This document shows positions 18,952 through 46,449 of a stretch of 64,000 nt of DNA, piece after piece. The position numbers and the translations under genes are program-made. The first letter of the stretch is position 1, and every line of letters begins with the position of its first letter. The DNA lies in assembly GCF_013340205.1 (NCBI RefSeq), contig NZ_BJTG01000004.1:248001-312000 (forward strand), written 5' to 3'. The notes under the pieces are model-generated. The model saw only the letters and a program-made list of their open reading frames with translations. It did no database searches and was not told where the DNA came from. This DNA comes from Anaeromyxobacter diazotrophicus. GTDB lineage: Bacteria > Myxococcota > Myxococcia > Myxococcales > Anaeromyxobacteraceae.

Positions 18952-18968
18952 CGTTGCTGCTTCTCGAG

Positions 18969-19050
18969 TGCCCAGGGCGAGATTCGAACTCGCACGCCTT
19001 ACGGCGCCACCCCCTCAAGATGGTGTGTCTACCAGTTCCACCACCTGGGC
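18969..19050 (-). tRNA. tRNA-Leu (anticodon GAG)
   Basis: Minus-strand cloverleaf: acceptor GCCCAGG / CCTGGGC with discriminator A, D arm with GGTAGACAC, anticodon stem CCATC / GGTGG with loop TTGAGGG (anticodon GAG), long variable arm CGCC-GTAA-GGCG, and T arm GCGAG-TTCGAAT-CTCGC. The long variable arm identifies a class II tRNA. CCA is not encoded. Confidence 0.95.
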
Positions 19051-45009: not shown

Positions 45010-45227
45010 GACCCCCCAGCGGGGTCGGACTCGCCGCCCCGGTTACGTCGCCTCGCCTGCCCGTTCCCCAGGAAGGCTGAGGTGGATCATGCCCGTCGGC
45101 AAGGTGTACACGGCAGCGCCCAGGTGGAGCGGGCGCGCCGGGCACGTCGAGGGATTGCGCGACGCGAGCACCAGAAAGGGCTGCCGCGCTGGCCGGCCGT
45201 GCGGCATCATCGTCGCGAGGAGGCACG

Positions 45228-45446
45228 ATGAGCGCCAAGCGCGTGAGCATCTACGGTAAGGACACCTGACCCTACACCAATGCCGCCCGTGTGGACTTCG
45301 GCAAACGTGGATTCGAGGTGCAGTACTTCAACGTGAAGCGGAACCCGGAGGCGCTCGACCGGTTCCTGGATCTCTCGGGAGGCGATCGGCGCGTCCCCCT
45401 CATCGACGAGGAGGGGCGGATCTCGATCGGATTCAACGGCAGTTGA
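45228..45446 (+). CDS. Glutaredoxin-like selenoprotein (in-frame TGA = Sec14)
   Basis: 72 residues if TGA 45267-45269 is read as selenocysteine: MSAKRVSIYGKDT-U-PYTN and on. The U-P-Y-T sits exactly where glutaredoxins have C-P-Y-C/T, and the frame stays open afterwards with a complete thioredoxin-fold pattern: GFEVQYFNVKRNPEAL, then RVPLIDEEGRISIGFNG, the family's conserved cis-Pro and C-terminal glycine region. GAGGAGG at 45217-45223 is ideally spaced. A stem-loop after the TGA is a candidate SECIS. A pseudogene or sequencing error is the main alternative, but the rest of the frame shows no decay. It would reduce disulfides or mixed thiols. Confidence 0.78.
45281..45303 (+). promoter_or_regulatory. 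Candidate bacterial SECIS stem-loop
   Basis: TGCCG (45281-45285) pairs with CGGCA (45299-45303), with an inner CC/GG pair closing a GTGT apical loop (45289-45292). The apical G lies about 20 bases after the TGA, within the 16-37 base window known for bacterial SECIS elements. It is coding as well as structural. Confidence 0.5.
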
Positions 45447-45521
45447 AGCGTCTGACGGCCCCGGTCGGGGCCTCGAGTCAGGGCGCCGGCGGAGGAGGTG
45501 CTCCTCCGCGCGGCGCCAGCT

Positions 45522-46241
45522 TCAGCGGTAGGTCGCGCGCCGGCCCGGGCGAAAGCCGGGCGGCATCATCTGCGGAGGCGCCTCGACGCCGAAGTTGTAC
45601 CACTCGAGGTAGAGCTTCCCGATCTTCACCTTCTTGCCGTTCTGCACCGCCTGGAGCGCGGACTTGAGCTTCTCGTCGCTCGCGTTCGCCTCGACCCCGC
45701 GCGCGAGCACCCGCACCGCCTCTTCGTGGCGGTTCTCCTTGTCGAGGAGCCAGGCGTAGGCGCACCAGAGGAGCCCCTGCTTCCGGTTGCCGCGCCCCTT
45801 GAGCGTGTCCTCGAAGACCTTCTGCATGCCGGCGAGGTCGCGCTTCCTCCAGCGGGCGATGGCCAGCATCAGCCGCGCCGGCCACTGGCTGTTCGCGGCG
45901 CGCTCGAGGTAGGGCAGCGCCCCGTCCTGCTCGCCCTTCCACCACATGAACTGTCCGATGAGCGCGGCGACGGCCGCCTCGGACCCGAAGAGCCAGCGGC
46001 TCAAGGCGAACGCGCCCTTCGCCTGCTGGATGGCGCGGTCGAAGCGGCGCGCCTGGGCGTCCGCGACCGCCGCCTCCACCACGGCGGAGAGCCGCTTCTG
46101 CGCGCGCAGGTTGAGCGCGACGTAGGCGATGGCCGCGGCGAGCACGCCGGGGACGATGACCGCCACCCAGCCGAAGCCCGCCAGGCGAATCGCGAGCGCG
46201 ACGGCGAACCCTGCGGCGAGGCTGAGGAGGAGATTGTACAT
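45522..46241 (-). CDS. Membrane-anchored TPR-like protein
   Basis: 239 residues. Two membrane segments occur near the N-terminus (NLLLSLAAGFAVALAIRLAG and VAVIVPGVLAAAIAYVALNL). A helical repeat region follows (GALPYLERAANSQWPARLML, then GLLWCAYAWLLDKENRHEEA) that reads as TPR/SEL1-like units facing the cytoplasm. The C-terminus (KVKIGKLYLEWYNFGVEAPP) is not repeated. Function unknown. Its stop faces the Sec-glutaredoxin gene, 75 bases away. Confidence 0.7.
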   Translation of the reverse strand: MYNLLLSLAAGFAVALAIRLAGFGWVAVIVPGVLAAAIAYVALNLRAQKRLSAVVEAAVADAQARRFDRAIQQAKGAFALSRWLFGSEAAVAALIGQFMWWKGEQDGALPYLERAANSQWPARLMLAIARWRKRDLAGMQKVFEDTLKGRGNRKQGLLWCAYAWLLDKENRHEEAVRVLARGVEANASDEKLKSALQAVQNGKKVKIGKLYLEWYNFGVEAPPQMMPPGFRPGRRATYR

Positions 46242-46365: not shown

Positions 46366-46449
46366 TGGCCCTCCCCGGATTCGAACCGGGACGGGGGGTT
46401 GCCCCACTCGATTTTGAGTCGAGCGCGTTTACCATTTCGCCAGAGGGCC
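46366..46449 (-). tRNA. tRNA-Leu (anticodon CAA)
   Basis: Minus strand. Acceptor GGCCCTC / GAGGGCC with discriminator A, D arm with ATGGTAAACGC, anticodon stem CTCGA / TCGAG with loop CTCAAAA (anticodon CAA), long variable arm TGGGGCAACCCCCC, T arm with GGTTCGAATCC. It reads UUG, a rare codon in such GC-rich genomes. CCA is not encoded. Confidence 0.94.

Follow-up and report, generated by a model that had tools for sequence, protein, structure and literature searches.

The Anaeromyxobacter-type glutaredoxin-like gene at positions 45228 to 45455 of the window (the whole stretch of 64,000 nucleotides analysed here, from Anaeromyxobacter diazotrophicus) very probably encodes a double selenoprotein, in which both in-frame TGA codons would be read as selenocysteine (Sec). 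The second of these, at 45444-45446, is almost certainly a Sec codon and not a stop. The case is built on what can be read in the DNA: the gene itself, its two TGAs and their conservation, the Sec machinery of the genome and a hairpin that follows the second TGA. The features of the locus are the following, with the type of evidence in brackets:

45217 to 45223, plus strand: Shine-Dalgarno-like GAGGAGG, 4 bases 5' of the ATG (sequence)
45228 to 45455, plus strand: probable gene for a double selenoprotein of 75 aa, with Sec as residues 14 and 73 and TGA 45453-45455 as its stop (sequence, relatives, profile match)
45267 to 45269, plus strand: TGA, predicted Sec codon 14, in the motif UPYT; 10 of the 24 members have Cys here (family comparison)
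45281 to 45303, plus strand: candidate SECIS 1, in which CC/GG pairs carry the apical CGUGU and are followed, past a bulge of 4 nt on the 3' side, by UGCCG/CGGCA pairing; weak by folding energy (folding, conservation)
45444 to 45446, plus strand: TGA, predicted Sec codon 73; TGA in 24 of 24 members (family comparison)
45448 to 45484, plus strand: putative SECIS 2, with a GGCCCC-GGUC-GGGGCC apical part and CUGAC/GUCAG pairing across a bulge, extending beyond the true stop (folding, conservation)
45453 to 45455, plus strand: true stop TGA; several relatives have TAG or TAA there (relatives)

From the ATG at 45228, the frame meets the first TGA at codon 14, in the context KDTUPYTNAAR; after the second TGA it continues with AGC GTC TGA, that is U-S-V-stop. 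The full 75-aa product would be MSAKRVSIYGKDTUPYTNAARVDFGKRGFEVQYFNVKRNPEALDRFLDLSGGDRRVPLIDEEGRISIGFNGSUSV. The first-pass annotation had placed an in-frame TGA at the glutaredoxin active-site motif, a GAGGAGG upstream of the ATG and 58 sense codons in frame past TGA 14, all of which are real, and the stretch VPLIDEEGRISIGFNG that it gave was also confirmed. Its proposal of a single Sec stands for residue 14, but the terminal TGA as a second Sec codon and the catalogued family were both overlooked. The corrected gene model has two Sec and three extra residues compared with that first version, and it provides an example of a TGA three codons before the true end being mistaken for an ordinary stop.

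The gene had been described as unannotatable, a statement that is outdated, as NCBIfam already has models for glutaredoxin-like selenoproteins. When Sec is replaced by Cys, the score of the 72-aa form against NF041114, the NCBIfam model of UXX-star selenoprotein family 1, is 93.7 bits (cut-off 72), and the window protein shares 41-72% identity with 23 homologues, so that the family-like features reported earlier go beyond chance. The 75-aa form reaches 101.5 bits against the same model and covers positions 1-70 of 70, while the Pfam glutaredoxin model PF00462 gives 30.4 bits (cut-off 22.9). Besides a score over the curated cut-off, the protein has the C-terminal U73-S-V-stop and, in U14-P-Y-T, the UxxT motif that mark NF041114 membership. 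A 2026 review (PMC13188914), which cites Haft and Tolstoy 2025 as the source for the UXX-star families, has an entry for NF041114 under the name 'distant Grx-like protein 1', giving it two Sec and a UxxT motif. Because the NF041114 cut-off is passed and two Sec are listed in that review, we assign the protein to a known double-selenoprotein family; the window gene adds a member, and the family itself is not new.

An AlphaFold model obtained from 24 sequences (pLDDT 92.5) shows the order E-H-E-H-E-E and does not have the final helix seen in ordinary glutaredoxins. It matches glutaredoxin and NrdH structures with a VIA Z of about 10 and 1.7-1.8 A over 65-66 residues; these matches lie within residues 5-71 and stop short of residues 72-75. 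Many glutathione transferases appear among the VIA-align rows, reflecting the common fold only.

Putting these data together, we envisage a 75-residue glutaredoxin-fold protein of UXX-star family 1, lacking the last helix, whose UGA 14 and UGA 73 would both be recoded by SelB and Sec-tRNA-Sec, each guided by the hairpin just 3' of it, the second of which would straddle the true stop. U14 of the UPYT motif would act as the nucleophile on a substrate disulfide or similar bond. Thr occupies the position +3 from it, so that residue 14 has no resolving Cys of the usual kind; this part would fall to U73, which lies in the C-terminal U-X-X-stop tail and would form a diselenide here and a Cys-Sec bond in relatives with Cys14. 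In glutaredoxins the chain that follows the final strand adjoins the glutathione site, and U73, to judge from its inferred position, would sit beside that site. A redox protein using residue 14 and U73 as a pair is the most likely function, while for the redox partnership of U14 with U73 itself we put the chances at about even.

The selenol pair could instead bind a metal, a metalloid or another substrate rather than take part in thiol redox chemistry, with the same gene model; we regard this as rather unlikely but worth keeping in mind, as the same review (PMC13188914) states that the Sec of UXX-star proteins may be a metal-binding ligand or contact unknown substrates. The glutaredoxin fold, a catalytic position occupied by Sec or Cys, and the conserved VP loop argue against it, and no metal-handling neighbour is common to the relatives. 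In Anaeromyxobacter-type genomes the selenoprotein gene is by itself, flanked by two genes on the minus strand, of which one is a kinase/response-regulator/GGDEF gene and the other encodes 239 aa and has no Pfam match. Its neighbours in two outside genomes include HhH-GPD, NDK, protoglobin-PsiE and RlmN genes, and no functional clue is common to the neighbourhoods compared. The 239-aa gene of the window (45522-46241, minus strand), convergent with the selenoprotein gene, has no Pfam match at 1e-5, and a relative of it adjoins the selenoprotein gene in 10 of the 10 same-family neighbourhoods compared. Two tRNA-Leu genes are also found in the window, at 46366-46449 and at 18968-19050 (minus strand), with anticodons CAA and GAG.

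Recoding of TGA 73 by way of a SECIS is consistent with the hairpin that follows it, which in the window folds with -22.3 kcal/mol and a z of -2.3 relative to shuffled sequences. Hairpins were scored as having at least 6 pairs and a loop of 3-6 nt that has G in the first two positions and begins 14-30 nt away from the TGA, counted from the codon's first base. By this definition a hairpin follows TGA 73 in all 24 members and only 938 of 6196 background TGAs (15.1%) of the same DNA, a comparison that ignores shared ancestry. The apical loop lies 19-29 nt downstream of TGA 73 and is mostly GGUC or CGUGN; two members (L059 and L061) qualified only with other loops. When the sequences were compared by anchoring them on the loop, compensatory pair changes were observed in the stem, such as CG/GC and CG/TA, and part of the mismatches in this comparison come from one row (L035) set on the wrong GGTC. 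A GGUC apical loop is also present in E. coli fdhF. A stable, G+C-rich hairpin at the end of a gene might equally suggest a transcription terminator; we consider this very improbable, since a terminator scan found no terminator-type T-run 3' of the hairpin, and the loop is conserved both in sequence and in its spacing from the TGA, with a GGUC/GUC loop likewise found 3' of the selD TGA.

Evidence that TGA 73 is a Sec codon also comes from the relatives. The gene is over the NF041114 cut-off in 14 of 24 genomes of the same organism family and, across the phylum, in 21 of 195 genomes (23 at E 1e-12); 24 members were read, namely the window gene and 23 relatives, two additional genomes included. 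Position 73 is TGA in every one of them, never TAA or TAG, and in each case exactly two codons separate it from a stop, which may be TGA, TAG or TAA depending on the member; because of this arrangement we set the end of the gene at 45455, and the earlier statement that it 'ends normally' at 45446 is wrong. The version of the first-pass annotation, in which only U14 is Sec and 45444-45446 is a normal stop closing a 72-aa protein, could draw on the frequency of TGA stops in G+C-rich genomes and on the fact that the 72-aa form alone passes the NF041114 cut-off. Its probability is nevertheless slight, even a shade below that of the terminator: it has to face an invariant TGA 73 ahead of a stop that varies, tail residues that are conserved among members, a tail included in the NCBIfam model and a hairpin 3' of the codon in all members.

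Insertion of Sec at UGA 14 and UGA 73, which we infer from sequence, would depend on a machinery that the genome holds. The search, over 4.83 Mb in 17 contigs, found a tRNA-Sec above the Rfam cut-off with anticodon UCA, selB (337 bits), selA (523 bits joined) and selD (395 bits, with one in-frame TGA), supporting the selenoprotein interpretation put forward earlier, for which a genome lacking these genes had been named as the refuting case. Among the 24 same-family genomes, selB is over the cut-off in 18; the gene carriers without it are one genome in which selB was matched in two pieces (G010) and the incomplete genomes G019 and G021. The selD gene (L022:1501-2427; G000:C2:35154-36080) has its in-frame TGA close to the start, followed by two strong hairpins, and because of this SelD is itself a probable selenoprotein; the second hairpin has GUC as its loop, set within GGUC. 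That the in-frame TGA marks a decayed glutaredoxin pseudogene is scarcely credible, given two TGA sites shared by many genera, a passed family cut-off, an intact Sec machinery and a pN/pS of 0.45-0.55 between the two TGAs against five relatives, meaning fewer amino-acid changes than silent ones; this ratio disfavoured the pseudogene as the absent T-run did the terminator.

Position 14 behaves differently from position 73. As anticipated by the first-pass annotation, homologues have Sec or Cys there: TGA in 14 of the 24 members, and TGC or TGT in the other 10. On the protein tree this label changes at least four times, with most inner branches weakly supported. An all-Cys (CXX-stop) form was not found in the 195 phylum genomes at E 1e-12; the sole TGA-free match of that search turned out to be an ordinary glutaredoxin and not a CXX-stop member. 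The stem-loop proposed earlier after TGA 14 does exist and is backed by conservation, but it is weak, with -7 kcal/mol and a z of -0.01, no more stable than shuffled sequences. Support for this hairpin comes from its loop, because the loop is conserved together with Sec14, and not from folding energy. GCCCGTG occurs at a fixed distance after codon 14 in 13 of 14 Sec14 genes versus 0 of 10 Cys14 genes (Fisher p 5.6e-6, a value that disregards relatedness). Four ORFs of the window have 193 Arg codons between them, and none of these is CGT, the Arg codon contained in that motif. Most Sec14 genes, but no Cys14 gene, have a CGTGN loop closed by CC/GG that stands on a further stem, either directly or over a bulge; this bulged-stem criterion was set after inspection of the sequences. 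Two Cys14 members (L032 and L033), relatives of the Sec14 member L036, keep CGTGAGG with the rare CGT loop codon, which is likely a SECIS remnant; next to L036, they look as if Sec had given way to Cys not long ago and the SECIS were decaying.

We tentatively propose, as an idea less secure than the pairing itself, that the indispensable residue is U73 and not the classical active-site residue, position 14 alternating between Sec and Cys with its SECIS decaying after each loss, in a redoxin that would form an intramolecular diselenide or selenenylsulfide and whose second SECIS spans the stop. The natural series of Cys14 and Sec14 proteins with an invariant Sec73 is a ready set for testing the role of a C-terminal Sec in a minimal redoxin.

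Among known systems, the closest is UXX-star family 1 (NF041114), with which the window protein shares an end-to-end profile match, the two predicted Sec and the UxxT motif; it differs in detail only, having the tail U-S-V where U-G-V is commoner, and GFNGS, not GFGGT/S. UXX-star families 2 and 3 and the HUGP/GUXX-star fusion (NF041211, NF047338 and NF045501) are related glutaredoxin-like models that were also matched, all three under their curated cut-offs. Glutaredoxins (PF00462; Clostridium cGrx1 and cGrx2; PDB 7c10, 7c12 and 4tr0) have the same fold and are among the best sequence and structure matches; compared with them, the window protein is shorter, lacks the C-terminal helix in the model, has Thr and not Cys at +3 from residue 14, and carries a predicted C-terminal Sec tail.
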